Origin: Pseudomonas sp. Seg1
GTDB lineage: Bacteria; Pseudomonadota; Gammaproteobacteria; Pseudomonadales; Pseudomonadaceae
NCBI RefSeq assembly: GCF_018326005.1
Contig: NZ_AP021903.1
Location: 2,854,001 to 2,918,000, forward strand
Direction: 5' to 3'
DNA length: 64,000 nt
How positions within the stretch are numbered: the stretch's first letter is position 1; every line of letters begins with the position of its first letter. The notes under the pieces are model-generated. The model made no database searches and was not told where the DNA came from. It saw only the letters and a program-made list of their open reading frames with translations. The translations under genes were made by a program, and so were the position numbers. Of the stretch, positions 10,160 through 60,874 are shown one piece after another.

Positions 10160-10519
10160 TCAGTCCGGCATCTGCTGATTATCCAGCACCCGATTCACTG
10201 CCAGCTCCCCGAGCATGATCAGTTGCGCAATGCCCAGCAGCGCCCGACGCTGCGACGGGGGCAACAGACTGGCAACGTCCTGGGCAATGGTTTTAGCCGA
10301 AGCGAGCGTTTCACTGGCATCAGTCAGCAGTTCTTCGTTTTTGTTGTCCGCAGTCACGGCGTACATCCCACGGATTTTGCGTGGAGGTGGCGTGGACCCG
10401 GGCGGGCAGAGGTAGTGATCGAGAGCGCGGTCGGCGGCTTCGTTGAGCTTTTTCGAATCGAGGGATTCGTAGGGTGAGGTGGGGTCGGTTTCGGGCGGGT
10501 TTGGCGTTGGTTTTATCAT
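10160..10519 (-). CDS. DUF6124-type protein (copy 1)
   Basis: A 119-residue cytoplasmic protein with no signal peptide or membrane segment. It is paralogous to the protein at 60175-60537: both open with an N-terminal PPETDP.SPYES.DSKK segment, followed by A(A/E)(D/E)RALDHYL, and both close with an LLGIAQ..ML.ELAVNR(V/A)LD helix. The family appears restricted to Pseudomonas as far as I know, and its function is unknown. ATG at 10517-10519 follows AGAGG at an 8-base distance. That site lies at the edge of a helix in the long leader upstream (see 10520-10833), which suggests control of translation. The C-terminal half looks helical and could be an oligomerisation domain. Confidence 0.8.
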   Translation of the reverse strand: MIKPTPNPPETDPTSPYESLDSKKLNEAADRALDHYLCPPGSTPPPRKIRGMYAVTADNKNEELLTDASETLASAKTIAQDVASLLPPSQRRALLGIAQLIMLGELAVNRVLDNQQMPD

Positions 10520-10833
10520 CGGTGAAGCCTCTAGAGTAATGAAGCTGCCACCGTTCGCTGCTAACGAAGGAGGTGGCGGCTGTACGCGGGTTAGCAGACC
10601 AGGACTCTAGAACCCGGCGCACCGAAGTGCCCCACGCAAAGCCGCCATAACGACAACGGACTTTATGCGTCTAGAGATAACCCGGGCTGCTAAACCCGAT
10701 CGCTGATTCGTCAGCGACCGCACCACAATAGAACCCGTCCCCAAGGCGCACAAGCCGGCGGATTCTGGCGTAGCTGTAGGCAATTACGCAAGGTCGTGTA
10801 GCCTGATTACGTGTCTTTGCGTGTAATTTAAAC
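10520..10833 (-). promoter_or_regulatory. Structured 5' leader of DUF6124 copy 1, candidate translational RNA switch
   Basis: About 310 bp upstream of the DUF6124 gene match the region upstream of the second DUF6124 gene (60538-60874). Shared parts are: TTTAAAT at the far end (10826-10833); an identical 28-bp block (10746-10773); a GGG-loop-CCC hairpin (10684-10697); a 6-bp hairpin (10701-10706 with 10711-10716); a linker GTTAGCAG (10590-10597); a stem AGCTGCCACC/GGTGGCGGCT (10543-10552 with 10572-10581); and an outer helix TCTAGAGT/ACTCTAGA (10530-10537 with 10604-10611). The outer helix touches the AGAGG ribosome-binding site. The linker can pair with the inner hairpin loop (10558-10565, 8 bp) or with the upstream loop (10687-10693, 7 bp), but not both. 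Confidence 0.65.
10607..10648 (-). CDS. Possible 13-residue leader peptide (uORF) in DUF6124 leader copy 1
   Basis: ATG at 10646-10648 opens a 13-codon frame reading MAALRGALRCAGF that ends with TAG inside the outer leader helix. The second leader has an ATG at the equivalent place with a similar start (MAAVRRAPPG). No clear Shine-Dalgarno precedes either one, so translation is uncertain. Confidence 0.25.
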   Translation of the reverse strand: MAALRGALRCAGF

Positions 10834-11122: not shown

Positions 11123-14100
11123 TTAAAGTTCTCTAACTCTTAAGTTATCCAGGTTTACTGGCACTGTGCAGTAACCTGAATATGAATGCCAGTTTGTGAT
11201 TCTTATTAAAACATCTGCTTCTACAACTGGGTTGTATGTGTAGCGGGCCGAAAAAGCTATCCAGTCTGTCGGGCTTTTAGTTCTAAAGTCTTGAATCATC
11301 ACATCGTCTGCAAACATACGCAGGTTCATAGGGACGTAAGGAAGCATCGGAGTACCGCTTTTCCAAGCGAAACTAATCTCATACGTTTTTCCTTTTTTGA
11401 ACTTGAATAGCTTTTTTAAGCCTACGTGTTCAGCAAGATAGAGCTGGCCACCATTATTACGCCAATATGAATTTCCTGCCTCTGTAGTTTGTGCGCCCCA
11501 AGATTTATGGATGTTTGTCCATCCATTCCATTGTGAATTAGTAAAATCCGTAAAATCATTAAGTAGAACAATGACGGTCAGTGTCCTGACGGCCGATTCC
11601 GCACCCGCGCCATACAAGGCTTTGGCTTTGAAACTGTGCGCTGCAACGTTCAGGCCGGTGACGGTCAAGGTCCAGATACCGGATGTTGCATTGGCAGTGG
11701 TTTGACCCTTGGTGGTCGAGCCATCGAAGATTTCGACTTTCTGACCTTTTGCTGCGACCCCGCTCAGGGTCACGGCGGTTTCAATGGTCGAGCCGCCGTT
11801 AGGAATTTCAACCCCGCTCGGGCTGCCCTTGACCGACGTCAGCGTGGGGGCAGTGGCGGCGGTAACGGTCAGTGTCCTGACGGCCGATTCCGCACCTGAA
11901 CCATACAAAGCCTTGGCTTTGAAACTGTGCGCGGCCACGGTCAAGCCAGTGACGGCCAAGGTCCAGGCACCGGTCGATGCATTGGCGGTGACTTGGCCCT
12001 TGAATGTTTCGCCGTCGAACACGTTGATTTTCTGACCCTTGGCGGCGGCGCCGCTCAGGGTCACGGCCGTTTCGATGGTCAAACCGGCGTTGGGAATTTC
12101 AGCGCCGCTCGGGCTGCCTTTGACCGACGTCAGTGTCGGTGCAGTGGCGGCGGTAACGGTCAGCGTTCTGGCGGCGGATTCCGCACCCGCGCCATACAAA
12201 GCCTTGGCTTTGAAACTGTGCGCGGCCACGTTCAAGCCAGTGACGGCCAAGGTCCAGGCACCGGTCGATGCATTGGCGGTGACTTGGCCCTTGAATGTTT
12301 CGCCGTCGAACACGTTGATTTTCTGACCCTTGGCGGCGGCGCCGCTCAGGGTCACGGCCGTTTCGATGGTCAAACCGGCGTTGGGAATTTCAGCGCCGCT
12401 CGGGCTGCCTTTGACCGACGTCAGTGTCGGTGCAGTGGCGGCGGTAACGGTCAGCGTTCTGGCGGCGGATTCCGCACCCGCGCCATACAAAGCCTTGGCT
12501 TTGAAACTGTGCGCGGCCACGTTCAAGCCAGTGACGGCCAAGGTCCAGGCACCGGTCGATGCATTGGCGGTGACTTGGCCCTTGAATGTTTCGCCGTCGA
12601 ACACGTTGATTTTCTGACCCTTGGCGGCGGCGCCGCTCAGGGTCACGGCCGTTTCGATGGTCAAACCGGCGTTGGGAATTTCAGCGCCGCTCGGGCTGCC
12701 TTTGACCGACGTCAGTGTCGGTGCAGTGGCGGCGGTAACGGTCAGCGTTCTGGCGGCGGATTCCGCACCCGCGCCATACAAAGCCTTGGCTTTGAAACTG
12801 TGCGCGGCCACGTTCAAGCCAGTGACGGCCAAGGTCCAGGCACCGGTCGATGCATTGGCGGTGACTTGGCCCTTGAATGTTTCGCCGTCGAACACGTTGA
12901 TTTTCTGACCCTTGGCGGCGGCGCCGCTCAGGGTCACGGCCGTTTCGATGGTCAAACCGGCGTTGGGAATTTCAGCGCCGCTCGGGCTGCCTTTGACCGA
13001 GGTCAGTGTCGGTGCAGTGGCGGCGGTAACGGTCAGCGTTCTGGCGGCGGATTCCGCACCCGCGCCATACAAAGCCTTGGCTTTGAAACTGTGCGCGGCC
13101 ACGTTCAAGCCAGTGACGGCCAAGGTCCAGGCACCGGTCGATGCATTGGCGGTGACTTGGCCCTTGAATGTTTCGCCGTCGAACACGTTGATTTTCTGAC
13201 CCTTGGCGGCGGCGCCGCTCAGGGTCACGGCCGTTTCGATGGTCAAACCGGCGTTGGGAATTTCAGCGCCGCTCGGGCTGCCTTTGACCGAGGTCAGTGT
13301 CGGGGCAGTGGCGGCGGTAACGGTCAGTGACCTGACGGCCGATTCCGCACCCGCGCCATACAAGGCTTTGGCTTTGAAACTGTGCGCTGCAACGTTCAGG
13401 CCGGTGACGGTGAAGGTCCAGATGCCGGATGTTGCATCGGCAGTGGCTTGACCCTTGGTGGTCGAGCCATCGAAGATTTCGACTTTCTGACCTTTGGCGG
13501 CGACCCCGCTCAGGGTCACGGCGGTTTCAATGGTCAAGCCGCCATTGGGGATTTCAATCCCGCTTGGACTGCCTTTGACCGACGTCAGCGTGGGTGCAGT
13601 GGCGGCGGTGACAGTCAGTGTCCTGACGGCCGATTCCGCACCCGCGCCATACAAGGCTTTGGCTTTGAAACTGTGCGCTGCAACGTTCAGGCCGGTGACG
13701 GTCAAGGTCCAGATGCCGGATGTTGCATCGGCAGTGGCTTGACCCTTGGTGGTCGAGCCATCGAAGATTTCGACTTTCTGACCTTTGGCGGCGACGCCGC
13801 TCAGGGTCACGGCGGTTTCGATGGTCAAGCCGCCATTGGGAATTTCAATCCCGCTCGGGCTGCCTTTGACCGACGTCAGCGTGGGTGCAGTGGCGGCGGT
13901 GACAGTCAGTGTCCTGACGGCCGATTCCGCACCTGAACCATACAAAGCCTTGGCTTTGAAACTGTGCGCCGCAACGTTCAGGCCGGTGACGGTCAAGGTC
14001 CAGATGCCGGATGTTGCATCGGCAGTGGCTTGACCCTTGGTGGTCGAGCCATCGAAGATTTCGACTTTCTGACCTTTTGCTGCGACCCCGCTCAGGGTCA

Positions 14101-17100
14101 CGGCCGTTTCGATGGTCAAGCCGCCGTTAGGAATTTCAATCCCGCTTGGACTGCCTTTGACCGACGTCAGCGTGGGTGCAGTGGCGGCGGTAACGGTCAG
14201 TGTCCTGACGGCCGATTCCGCACCCGCGCCATACAAGGCTTTGGCTTTGAAACTGTGCGCTGCAACGTTCAGGCCGGTGACGGTCAAGGTCCAGATGCCG
14301 GATGTTGCATTGGCAGTGGCTTGACCCTTGGTGGTCGAGCCATCGAAGATTTCGACTTTCTGACCTTTTGCTGCGACCCCGCTCAGGGTCACGGCGGTTT
14401 CAATGGTCAAGCCGCCGTTGGGAATTTCAATCCCGCTTGGACTGCCTTTGACCGACGTCAGCGTGGGTGCAGTGGCGGCGGTAACGGTCAGTGTCCTGAC
14501 GGCCGATTCCGCACCCGCGCCATACAAGGCTTTGGCTTTGAAACTGTGCGCTGCAACGTTCAGGCCGGTGACGGTCAAGGTCCAGATGCCGGATGTTGCA
14601 TTGGCAGTGGCTTGACCCTTGGTGGTCGAGCCATCGAAGATTTCGACTTTCTGACCTTTTGCTGCGACCCCGCTCAGGGTCACGGCCGTTTCGATGGTCA
14701 AGCCGCCGTTAGGAATTTCAACCCCGCTCGGGCTGCCCTTGACCGACGTCAGCGTGGGGGCAGTGGCGGCGGTAACGGTCAGTGACCTGACGGCCGATTC
14801 CGCACCCGCGCCATACAAGGCCTTGGCTTTGAAACTGTGTGTCGCGGCGCTCAGGCCGGTAACGACATGGGTCCATACGCCGGAGCCATTGGCGGTGGGT
14901 TCGTGCAGTGCGGTGCTGCCATCGAGCAAGCGGACTTTCTGGTTGGGGCTGGCAGTGCCGGTGACGGTGACGGTACGGTCAAAGGTAATGCCACCGGGTG
15001 CGACCGTGCCTTTGGAGTCGGTGATGTTGGTGATGGTTGGCGTCACTGCTTGGGCGACGGTGAAAGTACGTGGCGGAGTCGACACCGGGCCATCGCCATA
15101 CAAGGCGAGTGCGGTGAGGCTGTAAGCCCTGACGGTCAATGCACTGACGACCTGGGTCCATACGCCGGAGCTGTTGGCAGTGGGTTCATGCAGTGTATTG
15201 GTGCCATCGCGCAAGCGGACTTTCTGGTTGGGGCTGGCCTTGCCAGTGACGGAAACGGAGCGGTCGAAGGTAGTGCCTCCTTGCAAGACCAGGCCTTTGG
15301 AATCGGTGACGTTGGTGATGGTTGGTGTCACTGCTTGGGCGACGGTGAAAGTACGTGGCGGAGTCGACTCCGGGCCATCGCCATACAAGGCGAGCGCGGT
15401 GAGGCTGTAAGCCTTGACGGTCAACTCACTGACGACCTGGGTCCATACGCCGGAGCCGTTGGCGGTGGGTTCATGCAGAGTGTTGTTGCCATCGCGCAAG
15501 CGGACTTTCTGGTTGGGGCTGGCCGTGCCGGTGACGGTGACATTGCGGTCGAAGGTAATGCCTCCTTGCACGACCGGGCCTTTGGAGTCGGTGACGTTGG
15601 TGATGGTGGGTGTCACTGCTTGGGCGACGGTGAAAGTACGTGGCGGAGTCGACTCCGGGCCATCGCCATACAAGGCGAGCGCGGTGAGGCTGTAAGCCTT
15701 GACGGCCAACGCACTGACGACCTGGGTCCATACGCCGGAGCCGTTGGCGGTGGGTTCATGCAAAGTGGTGTTGCCATCGCGCAAGCGGACTTTCTGGTTG
15801 GGGCTGGCCGTGCCGGTGACGGTGACATTGCGGTCGAAGGTAATGCCTCCTTGCACGACCGGGCCTTTGGAGTCGGTGACGTTGGTGATGGTGGGCGTCA
15901 CTGCTTGGGCGACGGTGAAAGTACGTGGCGGAGTCGACTCCGGGCCATCGCCATACAAGGCGAGCGCGGTGAGGCTGTAAGCCTTGACGGCCAACCCGCT
16001 GACGACCTGGGTCCATACGCCGGAGCCGTTGGCAGTGGGTTCATGCAGTGAATTGGTGCCATCGAGCAAACGGACTTTCTGGTTGGAGCTGGCCGTGCCG
16101 GTAACGGTGACGGTACGGTCAAAGGTAATGCCACCGGGTGCGACCGTGCCTTTGGAGTCGGTGATGTTGGTGATGGTTGGCGTCACTGCTTGGGCGACGG
16201 TGAACGTGCGCGGCGGAGCCGACACCGGGCCATCGCCATATAAGGCGAGTGCGGTGAGGCTGTAAGCCCTGACGGTCAACGCACTGACGACTTGGGTCCA
16301 AACGCCGGAGGCATTGGCAGTGGGTTCATGCAGTGTATTGGTGCCATCGCGCAAGCGGACTTTCTGGTTGGGGCTGGCCTTGCCAGTGACGGTAACGGAG
16401 CGGTCGAAGGTAATGCCTCCTTGCCAGACCGGGCCTTTGGAATCGGTGACGTTGTCGATGCTGGGTGTGACTTGCGCCACCACCTGCAATTCTCTGATGT
16501 CTGATTCAAGGCCTGAACCGTACAGCGCCTTGGCGGTAAAGCTGTGCTCCGCCAAGCTCAGGCCGGTCACCTCAAGTTCCCATCTGCCATTACTGGCACC
16601 CACCTCCGCGATGCCTTTGGACGTCACACCGTCAAAGATCTGGACTTTCAGGCGCGGTGTGCCGCCGCCGGTCAATGTGACGGTGGTATCGGGCGTGGTG
16701 CCTTTATCGGGGATCTCCACGCCTTTGGAGTCTTTCACCGAGGTGATGCTTGGTTTGATGGCATTGGAAAGTGTGACGACTCTGCCTAGCGATACCTGCC
16801 CCGTACCGTACAGCGCCTTGGCAGTGAGCGTGCGAGAACCAATGCCGGTCAGCGTGGTTTCGCAGGTCCAGATGCCAGCGTCATTGGCGGTGTATTTACC
16901 TTTTGAAGTCCCAATGTCGAACACTTCGACTTCCTGAAGCGGTGCTGCGGTGCCGGTCAGTTTGATCTTGGGATCGACCGTGCCGCCGTAATTCGGAATG
17001 TCTTCACCCTTGGAGTCTTGCACCGTGCTGATCACCGGTTTCACATCCTGCACGGCTTTGACGTTGTAAACGCGCGACGGGAAGGTCACGGCTTTGGCTT

Positions 17101-19543
17101 CATCGGTGCTGCCGTCGAAGGTCACCTTGAATTCGATTTCCAGTGTCGAGTTGTCCTTGAGACCGCGCAACTCGGCCACTGGTGTCGCCGGGTAAGGCCC
17201 TACGATCACGCCATTACCGCGTAGCGTTTCCCCCTCATAAGTCGTCTTTTTGTACTCCGATCCATCGGCTTTGGTGCCGCTGTAGCGCAGCCAGATTTTC
17301 TGATTCGCAGCAATCAAAGGCCAGGCAGCCACGCGTGTGGACGCATTGGCCAGGGTGGTCACATCGAGATCATCGTTGGACGCGCCATCGATGGTTGCCT
17401 TGGGCAGTTGAGCATGTTCATGCGGGATCGTCAGCACCGTCAGCGGCAAAACCTTTGAAGGCACAGGCGCACCACCGCGCGTCACGGTGTAACTCACCGT
17501 CACCGCTTTGCCCAGGTTGAAGGCCACGACCGCGTTTTTCAGCGTGATCGATTGTGGTCCCAGCGTGGTCACGGTTTTTTTCGCGGAGGTGTCCGAGCCG
17601 TTCGGCGTCGTGCCAGTCCAGGTAACGATGATGTCGTCACCAATCGCCATACCGGTGTAGTCGACGATGGCGGTCAGGCTGTCCTTGGCCGCGAACGGGT
17701 TGAGGCTGGTGCTGCCATTGGCCTCTTTGATCTTCGGCGCGTCCAGATCCAGCGCCGCGCCAATACGCAACGTCAACTCATGCGAATTCCCCAGCGTCAC
17801 TCCCGCCCGCTGAATGCTGTAATCGGCGACCACCCTGCCGTTGAGGTTGGCCGTCACGTATTGCTTGGCCACGGTGATGCGCACAGGTTTGCCGGCAGTG
17901 GCGGTGATCAGGTCGACGTGGTCGCTGGTGCTGCCGCCGCTGGCCGAGCCGCGCCAGGTCACGCGGTCCTTGTCGCGGGTGCCCAGGTACGGCACCACCA
18001 GCGTGGCGCCGAGCGGCGGCACTTTGTCCGGATCGAGCACGTCATTGTCTGCGCCCTCGACTTCCGGTCGGTCAAACGTCGGCAAGGGCACGCCGACCTG
18101 CATCGGAAATACCAGCGATTCGCGCACGCTCAGCAGCGCCGTTTCGCTGTTGGTGACCACGTAAAAGACCTTGACGTTCAGGCCGTTGAAGCGCCGGATT
18201 TCGGCATTGCTCACGTTGCGTTGGACGGGCTGGTTTTCCGCGATGTCGCCGACCGGACGTGGGTCTTCGTAATAGACCGTGCTACCACCCGGCGCCTGGG
18301 CTTGCCAGATCAGATTGATCAGGTCGCTGCTGTTGCGACCGGGATACCAGGGGATGTTCACCGTCGCCAAAGGCGTCTCCGGCGGCAAGGTGCCTCCCGG
18401 AGCTTCGTCCACAGTGGGAGCGCGCAATTGGCTGATGTCACCAATCACCGGGACGCTGGCGTTTTTCGAAGGGCGGTCGGCTGCACCGCTGCGCTGACAG
18501 ATGTAGCCGACCGAGGCGCTGCCCTTGGCGATGGCCCTGACCGATGCATTGGGAATGGGAAATTTCAGAGGAAACGATACGACCGCGACCGGCAATTCAA
18601 GTGGCCCGACGATGATCTGCGAGCCTTGCGCCGGGGTGCCTGTCCAGGTCAGGAACACCTTGTCACCGACCTTGAAATCAGCCTCCGGGGTATTGACCAG
18701 AACCACCACATCGTCATCGCCGAGCTGGTCGAGATTGATGCTGTTGGTCGGCTGGCCTTTGACCAGCACCAAGGGCTCCTTCAGTCGATTGCCGCCCAGA
18801 TTCACCAGCACTTTGCGAATGGCCGACCACGGCGCACGTTCGTCCGGATAGTTACCGCAGCGATCGACGACCTGATAAGCCACCGCCACTTCCGGGCCAT
18901 CACCCGCCGTCTCGATCACGGCGCGACTGAACACCACGTCGATCGGATGGCGGACCGGGTCCAGGGCCTGTTCCGGCGTGACGACGTGAGTGACCTGCTG
19001 ACTGCCCCAGCGGGCGAGGATGCGATCGTAGCGGGTGAGGTTGCGGTAAGGCACGATGCGCATCGTCACGCCTTTGGCCGGCAGGGTTTCATCGACCTCG
19101 TCATGGTCGAGGGAAAATTTCAGATCGGAGTGGCCGTCATCGCCAGCGATGTCATCGTATTCGCCGGGCCGCGTGAGCTTGACCAGCAGGATCAGTTCGG
19201 GTTTGGAATCTTCCGACGTCTGGTTCTTGTAGGTGATCCGGTAGAACACTGGCTTGGCCTCGCCGTCGAGCACGTGGGCCTTGGGAATGGTGAACGACAG
19301 GTCCTTGTTGAGCTCGATATCGAGATCGAGGGTCTTGCTCCAGATTGCCGAATTGGCATTGCCCCAGAACACCTCGGCCTTGTCGCCAATGCTCATGTTG
19401 AACCAGGCGGGAATGATGCCTTGCAGATCGTCCTCCACCGCCCGGATGGGAATGCCACCGCTGTAATGCTCGGCAGGATTCAGGGTGACCAGCGCAGGAA
19501 AGTACAGCGGTTTGAGGGCTAGCGGATGTTGGGGCGTGGTCAT
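11123..19543 (-). CDS. Giant Ig-like repeat protein, 2806 residues
   Basis: One uninterrupted frame. Residues 1 to about 830 are a unique N-terminal region of several beta-rich Ig-like modules. Then come about 19 tandem Ig-like repeats: two diverged, six of 95 residues ([12 protein letters not shown] type) and eleven of 97 residues ([14 protein letters not shown] type). Last is a 147-residue C-terminal module, rich in aromatic residues and jelly-roll-like (possible carbohydrate binding). No signal peptide, membrane segment or obvious type I secretion end is visible, so location is unknown; a surface adhesin or matrix protein is the usual guess for such architecture. ATG at 19541-19543 follows CGGAG; an in-frame ATG 66 bp upstream lacks a site and would run into the palindrome at 19607-19628. 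The region coding the C-terminal module is visibly A/T-richer than the repeats. Confidence 0.85.
11576..14771 (-). repeat. Eleven tandem 291-bp coding repeats (97-residue Ig-like type B)
   Basis: Period 291 bp. Three subtypes are seen: GVEIPNGG (first and last copies), GIEIPNGG (four copies) and [18 protein letters not shown] (five copies, about 12.0-13.4 kb). The five GA copies are almost identical at the nucleotide level, including silent sites, which suggests recent duplication or gene conversion. Boundaries are approximate. Confidence 0.92.
14772..16481 (-). repeat. Six tandem 285-bp coding repeats (95-residue Ig-like type A)
   Basis: Period 285 bp with the motif ITDSKG/VTDSKG, then DRxVTVTGxAS, then NQKVRLxDG, then LHEPTAN. 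The copy nearest the type B array (about 14772-15055) is a chimera: its first half is type A and its second half ([17 protein letters not shown]) is type B. This marks a recombination joint. Boundaries are approximate. Confidence 0.9.
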
Positions 19544-19606
19544 GGTGGCGGGCTCCGGTCGATGGTGGGGCGACAGAGTGATTGAACGTGGGATTGGCGG
19601 AATGCG

Positions 19607-19628
19607 CACCTGTCAGATCTGACAGGTG
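19607..19628. promoter_or_regulatory. Perfect 22-bp palindrome resembling a lux/las box
   Basis: CACCTGTCAGA followed at once by its exact complement TCTGACAGGTG. It fits the CT-N12-AG pattern of LuxR-family boxes with a CAGATCTG centre. It lies 64 bp upstream of the giant repeat gene and 97 bp upstream of the divergent lipoprotein gene, so it could control either. A TetR- or GntR-type operator would look similar. Confidence 0.6.
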
Positions 19629-60174: not shown

Positions 60175-60537
60175 CTATCCAGCTACATCAACCTTATCCA
60201 AAGCACGATTCACCGCCAGCTCCTCAAGCATCACCACCTGCGCAATGCCCAGCAAAGTCTTGCGTATCGGCCCATCCACAAGCCCGGCAACATCACCGAG
60301 CATGACACTCGCCGAGGCCAACGATTCGCAGGCATTTGCCAGCAACGACTCAGCATCGGCCTCCGGATCAACCAGAAACATTGTGCTGGGTTTATACGGC
60401 GCAGCCATGATCGCCGCCGCTGGCTTGAGGTAATGGTCGAGGGCGCGTTCTGCCGCGTCGTGGAATTTCTTGGAATCGGGTGATTCGTAAGGGGAGGCCG
60501 GGTCGGTTTCCGGAGGGTCAGGCGTTTCTTTGCACAT
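60175..60537 (-). CDS. DUF6124-type protein (copy 2)
   Basis: A 120-residue soluble protein paralogous to the one at 10160-10519: N-terminal PPETDPASPYESPDSKKFHD, AAERALDHYL, then a variable centre and the C-terminal LLGIAQVVMLEELAVNRALD. ATG at 60535-60537. AGGA lies 10 bases upstream. The spacer and the A of the start codon itself are part of an 11-bp leader helix (see 60538-60874). Two paralogues 50 kb apart, both under the same kind of leader, suggest a family controlled by a common RNA-level signal. Confidence 0.8.
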   Translation of the reverse strand: MCKETPDPPETDPASPYESPDSKKFHDAAERALDHYLKPAAAIMAAPYKPSTMFLVDPEADAESLLANACESLASASVMLGDVAGLVDGPIRKTLLGIAQVVMLEELAVNRALDKVDVAG

Positions 60538-60874
60538 TTCTTCTTTTTCCTGTTTGTGGCTGCCGCTCCGAGCTACTAAACAGGGGGTGGCAGCTGTACG
60601 CAGGTTAGTAGACCGGGGAAAAGAAGAAAGCCGGCGCGCCCGGGGGCGCCCTACGCACAGCCGCCATCAAATGCAGGTAAGGGATACCTGTCTCAGCGAC
60701 GCTTGTGCACTTTCATTTACCTCGGGCTACTAAACCCGATCACTGGGAATCAGTGACGGAGATCAAGTTACCGATGGCCCTCCAGGCGCACAAGCCGGCG
60801 GATTCTGGCGTAGTCGTAGGCAACGACGCAAGGTGTTGTAGCCTTCTGGGCGTAACGCGGCGTGTCATTTAAAC
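60538..60874 (-). promoter_or_regulatory. Structured 5' leader of DUF6124 copy 2, candidate translational RNA switch
   Basis: Same architecture as 10520-10833, with changed bases that keep pairing. The outer helix TTTCTTCTTTT/AAAAGAAGAAA (60537-60547 with 60619-60629) is unrelated in sequence to the TCTAGAGT helix of copy 1 but has the same place. The linker TTAGTAG (60605-60611) pairs with the inner loop CTACTAA (60573-60579) or with the upstream loop CTACTAA (60727-60733). The small hairpin is CACTG/CAGTG (60741-60745 with 60751-60755) in place of CGCTGA/TCAGCG. The 28-bp block (60786-60813) is identical to that of copy 1, and TTTAAAT ends the region (60867-60874). Confidence 0.65.
60605..60667 (-). 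CDS. Possible 20-residue leader peptide (uORF) in DUF6124 leader copy 2
   Basis: ATG at 60665-60667 opens MAAVRRAPPGAPAFFFSPVY, ending in the TAA formed by the linker segment itself. It contains a Pro-rich stretch that could slow ribosomes. The equivalent ATG in copy 1 starts a shorter peptide. No Shine-Dalgarno is evident. Confidence 0.3.
   Translation of the reverse strand: MAAVRRAPPGAPAFFFSPVY

Follow-up and report, generated by a model that had tools for sequence, protein, structure and literature searches.

A chromosomal C4 antisense RNA cassette of the phage P1 type before a DUF6124 gene in Pseudomonas, and its many relatives with matched pairing addresses

What is the structured leader that precedes a DUF6124 gene on the minus strand of the 64,000-nucleotide stretch of Pseudomonas sp. 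Seg1 DNA analysed here (the window), and how might it act on the gene behind it? A first-pass annotation, made from the sequence alone, had read the leader as an RNA switch or thermosensor controlling translation and had known of no described RNA family for it. The latter statement has to be withdrawn, for the leader is a C4 antisense RNA together with its target sites, a described kind of RNA. A search of Rfam finds C4 (RF01695) at 10569-10652, minus strand, with 68.3 bits against a gathering score of 45, and c4-a1b1 (RF03163) at 10679-10731, minus strand, with 57.4 bits against 46.7; no Rfam families other than these two reach their gathering score in the window. With these models, phage P1's own region obtains 68.8 bits (C4) and 51.0 bits (c4-a1b1). 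By score, the window leader is as good a C4 cassette as that of P1 itself, and the gene behind it differs.

The leader extends from about 10753 to 10519, with all its elements on the minus strand. The c4-a1b1 element contains a first hairpin (10717-10700) and then the a1 hairpin (10698-10683), the loop of which, TTTAGCAG (10687-10694), is the a1 target site; the b1 target site, CTCTAGA, lies at 10670-10676. The C4 RNA, with three helices, carries b' in a loop (TTCTAGAGTCC, 10602-10612) and, further on, a' (CTGCTAAC, 10590-10597). Behind it come the a2 target site (GTTAGCAG, 10558-10565), set in a small hairpin (10568-10554), and the b2 target site (ACTCTAGAG, 10529-10537), which overlaps the Shine-Dalgarno sequence AGAGG (10532-10528). 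The DUF6124 gene (10160-10519, minus strand, 119 aa; PF19619, 67.2 bits, cut-off 27) begins with an ATG at 10519. Watson-Crick pairing extends over 8 nt between a' and a2 and 7 nt between a' and a1, and b' can pair with b2 over 8 nt, reaching into AGAGG, and with b1 over 7 nt. What the first-pass annotation had called a linker is a'. Of the two loops with which it could pair, the inner one is target a2 and the one in the upstream GGG..CCC hairpin is target a1, and the outer helix of that annotation joins b' to b2 at the ribosome-binding site. All the pairings it named are present in the sequence. Upstream of the cassette and in the same direction, a gene at 11123-19609 (minus strand) encodes a 2828-aa protein with bacterial Ig-like repeats.

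The window holds a second leader of this kind at 60.5-60.8 kb, in which the changed set CTACTAA/TTAGTAG reported earlier is indeed present. It consists of a C4 RNA (60583-60671, minus strand, 76.8 bits), a weak c4-a1b1 element (60719-60770, minus strand) whose 27.5 bits stay below the gathering score of 46.7, and a second DUF6124 gene of 120 aa (60175-60537, minus strand).

Is the fold itself maintained? The stretch 10500-10720 folds with z = -4.34 relative to shuffled sequences, and in an alignment of 38 C4 copies the 24 pairs of the three helices are paired in 97.6% of cells, a figure favoured by the derivation of this structure from the same 38 sequences. Control structures slid along the alignment drop to 34-45% paired. 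Covariation, the check proposed with the first-pass annotation, is evident in these 38 copies: 13 of the 24 pairs change on both sides, with 100 cells of two-sided change compared with 26.8 in shuffles. On this point the earlier description is borne out: the leader is structured and shows covariation, and its pairing extends to the ribosome-binding site. A fold of this strength would suit a ligand riboswitch or a thermosensor, yet Rfam labels the element an antisense RNA with its targets, and its variable parts are pairing addresses, unlike a ligand pocket; such a reading is scarcely credible, and as regards a thermosensor nothing that we found points that way.

The genome to which the window belongs contains 38 RF01695 matches, all above the 45-bit cut-off (the lowest at 48.7). 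RF03163 has 39 matches at E<=1, 37 at E<=0.02 and 17 over its cut-off, and DUF6124 has 37 matches, 36 of them over the cut-off. C4 stands directly upstream of a DUF6124 match in 31 of the 38 cases. In the remaining seven the gene behind C4 is a DUF3077 gene (L011), a Bro-N gene of antirepressor type (L014), a decayed DUF6124 (L018) or one of four small genes (L010, L037, L045 and L046) for which Pfam gives no match at E 0.1. Conversely, six DUF6124 matches have no upstream C4, and a full-sensitivity search around these six revealed no convincing extra copy (best 19.5 bits near L051, and 17.6 on the other strand).

Three of these loci are unusual. At L014 (G000:C1:6336052-6336137) the gene behind C4 corresponds to the PHROG anti-repressor Ant; the neighbours scanned belong to ordinary host families (ammonium transporter, Mg chelatase), and an integrase-family gene lies about 4.6 kb away. 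At L018 (G000:C1:3470875-3470961) a1 is intact, a2 and the gene are fused as if by deletion, and DUF6124 is reduced to its last residues. At L047 (G000:C1:6407969-6409300) a DUF6124 gene has an a1-type hairpin and no C4; its a-site fits, at 6 nt or more, only one of the 38 C4 RNAs, that of L044 (8 nt), which is encoded about 15 kb away. Judged from this sequence fit, L047 is a candidate for regulation in trans by the C4 of L044.

The pairing addresses of the 38 C4s mostly fit their own targets. We compared complementarity in fixed windows with 20,000 permutations of partners; the copies are related, and their kinship stays in the resulting z values, which are 15.5 for a'-a2 and likewise 15.5 for b'-b2 (n = 38 C4 leaders), 15.2 for a'-a1 and 12.4 for b'-b1 (n = 35 leaders with an a1b1 match), and -1.4 and -1.0 for mismatched controls. 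Watson-Crick runs of at least 6 nt with the own target are present for a'-a2 in 37/38 copies and for a'-a1 in 35/35, but for b'-b2 in only 30/38 and for b'-b1 in 27/35; the corresponding rates with non-own targets are 10.4%, 8.6%, 18.3% and 6.6%. Among the 26 copies that could be judged, b2 overlaps a leniently defined Shine-Dalgarno-like core in 19.

The 37 copies with a matched a2 display 21 different a' cores, and therefore many coordinated changes are needed on any tree. Over the 108 tips of a DUF6124 protein tree, parsimony needs 49 changes of a' type, the shuffled mean being 58.9; we take this tree as weakly resolved, and exchange of whole cassettes would give an equal count. This analysis omitted eight of the 38 own-genome cassettes (L010, L011, L014, L018, L036, L037, L045 and L046) and those related C4 copies that do not lie directly before the gene. 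The variety of matched a' sequences bears on the possibility that the cassettes are functionless, decayed remnants of phage immunity. Some copies have decayed, L018 having lost its gene body and 6/37 DUF6124 matches standing without C4, but the a'-a2 match is kept in 37/38 despite 21 different a' sequences, which argues for coordinated selection still at work or for a recent exchange of whole cassettes and makes a decayed remnant very improbable.

How private are these addresses? Among loci that have a' in common, b' still fits its own b2 better than those of neighbours (n = 22, p = 5e-5). When at least 6 nt of a' and at least 7 nt of b' are demanded together, 26/38 own pairs pass compared with 6/1406 non-own pairs; with at least 6 nt for both, the counts are 30/38 and 25/1406. 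Against strict privacy counts the fact that a 7-nt a' fit also occurs in 88/1406 non-own pairs. RNAduplex energies average -24.3 for own targets and -18.6 for others, but we rejected them as a gauge of private addresses, the own target being ranked first for only 12/38 C4s; what we claim is therefore matched addresses and not strict orthogonality.

The arrangement extends well beyond one genome. A similarity search with DUF6124 yielded 506 confirmed loci, and in all 78 of the best named Pseudomonas loci kept from these the C4 ends 45-60 bases before the gene. Over the Pseudomonas and viral-contig loci there are 90 C4 matches, of which 89 were used (one was skipped for an N) and 86 are distinct; one minus-strand match (L070) was left out of the distance and address counts. 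Among the 86 distinct related copies, a'-a2 runs of at least 6 nt occur in 85 and b'-b2 runs of that length in 68.

A second genome of the genus (G009), with 38 C4 matches, repeats the address pattern. Among its best 20 of these matches, six matches having been turned to the correct strand beforehand, a'-a2 pairing of at least 6 nt is found in 19, and 17 own pairs pass the 6 + 7 nt requirement compared with 3/380 non-own pairs; the b' code again holds within groups with a common a' (n = 12, p = 5e-5). On contigs C21, C17 and C58 of this genome C4 occurs in groups of three, with about 90-110 bases between copies in C21 and partly in C58.

Across 59 genomes of the genus, C4 is present in 54 (0-54 matches each) and DUF6124 in 47 (up to 43 per genome), and the two counts rise together with a Spearman coefficient of 0.88, uncorrected for kinship. 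In some genomes, however, C4 far outnumbers DUF6124, as in G009 with 38 and 2. Of 59 genomes sampled from the family, 3 have DUF6124, all among the 5 that belong to the genus of the window, and under strict filters C4 is found in 15 of 115 genomes of the order, with 1-6 matches each outside the genome of the window.

Where the C4-linked genes come from was also considered. A plasmid home of the DUF6124 gene was rejected for lack of any plasmid match, and a phage home likewise, the only phage record being a single one at 42.5% identity. Five DUF6124 loci lie on viral contigs, with the gene about 0.8 kb or less from the contig end, and four of the five have a C4 match; a scan of viral contigs that used the DUF3077 protein from L011 as query gave no confirmed match. 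Common ancestry of DUF6124 and DUF3077-like proteins was rejected as no profile match links them. The model of one DUF3077-like protein (pLDDT 78.5) has two long helices.

The proteins begin alike for about nine residues (MIKPTPNPP, MKKLVPDPP) where their bodies differ, and P[NDH]P[PQ] occurs within the first 22 residues in 32/38 C4-linked genes of the window's genome. An M-x-K-x-x-P-[ND]-P-P start is common to proteins with unlike bodies both there and in G009. This common N-terminal start may be a tag or a part of the RNA control.

Is the whole device transcribed together with the gene? The a1b1 element, C4 and the target gene lie on one strand and are accompanied by a recurrent promoter-like pair. 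At the window locus it consists of TTGTGC (10753-10748) and, after 17 bases, TATTGT (10730-10725), which together match 7/12 consensus positions. In 26/35 leaders the best -35/-10-like candidate within the 52-base stretch searched has this spacing of 17 bases and reaches 6-7 bases into the a1b1 match; it agrees with only 6-7/12 consensus positions. At the window locus a generic promoter scan did not call the pair. If the pair is used, transcription would begin at about the first hairpin and the whole device would be in the mRNA. The start so predicted lies ahead of the linker, and not downstream of it, where the first-pass annotation saw the case in which the leader would be missing from the message.

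The same region bears on a mode of action like that of P4 CI, in which processed C4 would bind nascent a1b1 and cause premature termination. The a1 addresses are as strictly kept as those of a2 (35/35 and 37/38 at 6 nt), P4 CI works in this manner on the flanking seqA and seqC according to the accessible part of PMC4825925, and a terminator-like hairpin is called at a1. Yet the tail behind this hairpin is an interrupted U-run, and we consider attenuation of this kind quite unlikely here.

We propose instead that the leader is very probably a chromosomal C4 cassette of the phage P1/P7 type, whose C4 blocks translation of DUF6124 in trans. A single transcript would start just upstream of a1b1 and span a1b1, C4, a2/b2 and DUF6124. 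Within it, C4 would take its three-helix form and RNase P would cut near the GG at 10646, which in the alignment with P1 marks the point where processed P1 C4 starts, leaving an RNA of about 77 nt; the details of processing in P1 are drawn from the accessible part of PMC5320573 and from the P1 GenBank record. The freed C4 would then act in trans, binding a2/b2 on further copies of this message, with a' on a2 and b' on b2 across the Shine-Dalgarno sequence, so that DUF6124 would not be translated. This mechanism of repression, taken over by analogy from P1, has good support. The a1b1 arm carries the same two sites; it may pair with b'/a' in place of C4 folding and, as a decoy, set how much C4 is made or free.

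Does the leader choose between these structures within one molecule? With a nested model that does not cover pseudoknots we folded 34 leaders, namely those with an a1b1 match except the decayed L018; L010, L044 and L046 lack such a match. At a predicted probability above 0.5, the C4 stem forms in 10 leaders and a'-a1 in 21; in cis, a'-a2 exceeds this level in 0/34 and b'-b2 in 1/34. Predicted formation of C4 is 0.32 with its own 5' arm, 0.86 with arms of other address and 0.90 with no arm, and it is lower with the own arm in 28/34 leaders (Wilcoxon 1e-6). A set of 85 related, non-independent leaders gives 0.42 with the own arm compared with 0.77, and the lower value goes with the own arm in 71/85. 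In most leaders the a1b1 arm and the C4 fold are therefore predicted to exclude each other. For P1, C4 is formed at 1.00 in the presence of its arm, and no competition from a1b1 is predicted, so that this step may belong to the Pseudomonas leaders or to the folding model. Taken by itself, the decoy step, with the a1b1 arm setting the amount of C4 made or free, is a model-based suggestion that we hold possible and somewhat short of probable.

These predictions also accord with activation of the IsrK kind, in which the leader would be mainly a switch in cis: a1b1 on b'/a' silences, and a short 5' RNA opens the structure in trans. Besides the predominance of a'-a1 in the predicted ensemble of 21/34 leaders, the same stretch has a sub-threshold match to isrK (30.2 of 50 bits in the window, 35.1 in P1), and experiments at the IsrK locus demonstrate such alternative structures, as the accessible part of PMC4825925 reports. 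What speaks against it is that in most of the folding models b2 and the Shine-Dalgarno sequence remain unpaired with b' in cis, that the isrK match lies below its cut-off, and that the one terminator-like call within the leader on this strand coincides with the a1 hairpin, whose T tail is broken, the region as a whole having 2 such calls where 1.0 is expected. We regard this alternative as unlikely. Under the preferred reading, repression by C4 in trans, the switch of the first-pass annotation survives in part: the a1b1 and C4 folds are predicted to be mutually exclusive, but repression is expected to come mainly from an antisense RNA that is processed and acts in trans. Its statement that the linker pairs with one loop or the other holds for the pairings as such, and not merely as a choice inside one molecule, because a' is expected, by analogy with P1, to pair in trans too.

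What would such an arrangement amount to? Tentatively, and as something that may rather than must be the case, we picture dozens of parallel C4 switches per Pseudomonas chromosome, with largely private a'+b' addresses and set by competition between the a1b1 decoy and C4 folding; an amplified phage immunity circuit would here have passed into host regulation of short proteins (DUF6124, DUF3077 and others), with some wiring in trans, as between L047 and L044. If this is true, the set of proteins under such C4 switches is specific to Pseudomonas, and the uncharacterised DUF6124 family would gain a regulatory context. The element itself is correctly filed as C4 RNA, and the interest lies in the set: 38 antisense RNAs per cell, almost all next to a target that matches and mostly with an address of their own, would be a natural test of how many RNA-RNA pairs can work in parallel without cross-talk. 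What deserves testing is the decoy role proposed for a1b1, together with the set of addresses across the genome. In a literature search that covered few subscription papers, the titles and abstracts contained no description of these cassettes, DUF6124 was not mentioned, and DUF3077 appeared only in an unrelated mention within the accessible text.

Weinberg et al. 2010 reported both elements from phages and, among bacteria, C4 from Proteobacteria and c4-a1b1 from gamma-Proteobacteria (accessible part of PMC2864571). The closest described system is that of P1/P7, whose C4 (RF01695) and a1b1 (RF03163) have the fold, the order of elements and close model scores in common with the window cassette, as well as the pairing of a' with a1 and a2 and of b' with b1 and b2, with b2 at the ribosome-binding site. 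The P1 GenBank record of the immI operon runs promoters, a1, b1, c4, a2, b2, icd, ant1; the element order of the window leader is the same, with DUF6124 in place of icd/ant, and control of icd/ant as in P1 does not apply at this locus. The P1 pairings span 7 nt for a' with either a1 or a2, 8 nt for b' with b2 and 7 nt for b' with b1. Gaps were compared with those of the 30 Pseudomonas copies whose b'-b2 run is 6 nt or longer. Between a2 and b2 there are 22 bases in P1 and a median of 24.5 (range 18-55) in these copies; between b2 and ATG there are 10 bases in P1 and a median of 7.5 (range -19 to 12). Unlike those of P1/P7, the Pseudomonas cassettes are chromosomal, their first gene is DUF6124 and not icd/ant, 38 copies with different addresses occur in the genome of the window, and the variable distance from a1b1 to C4 is shorter (25-63 bases in that genome, 67 in P1). 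Competition between a1b1 and C4 is predicted for the Pseudomonas leaders, whereas it is not for P1.

Other systems resemble the cassette in single features. The accessible text of PMC4825925 describes for IsrK of Gifsy-1 (RF01394) a 5' arm complementary to downstream RNA of the same transcript, with alternative structures whose cis pairing was established experimentally, as we likewise find predicted here, and an antirepressor-like gene downstream, which we count as a further likeness. Pairing of the 5' arm goes with silence at that locus, and a short RNA activates it in trans; the outcome thus differs, and the window leader stays below the family cut-off (30.2 of 50 bits). For P4 CI with seqA/seqC, the same text describes an antisense RNA cut from the transcript and two complementary flanking sites, a likeness by description and not by sequence; P4 CI differs in acting through transcription termination. 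Finally, group 1 of Acinetobacter baumannii comprises 21 chromosomal C4-like sRNAs whose a' loop varies and which, to judge by RNA-seq, seem to be processed out of longer transcripts; the accessible part of PMC5320573 names no target for them, whereas almost all C4s of the genome studied here are followed directly by a matching target.
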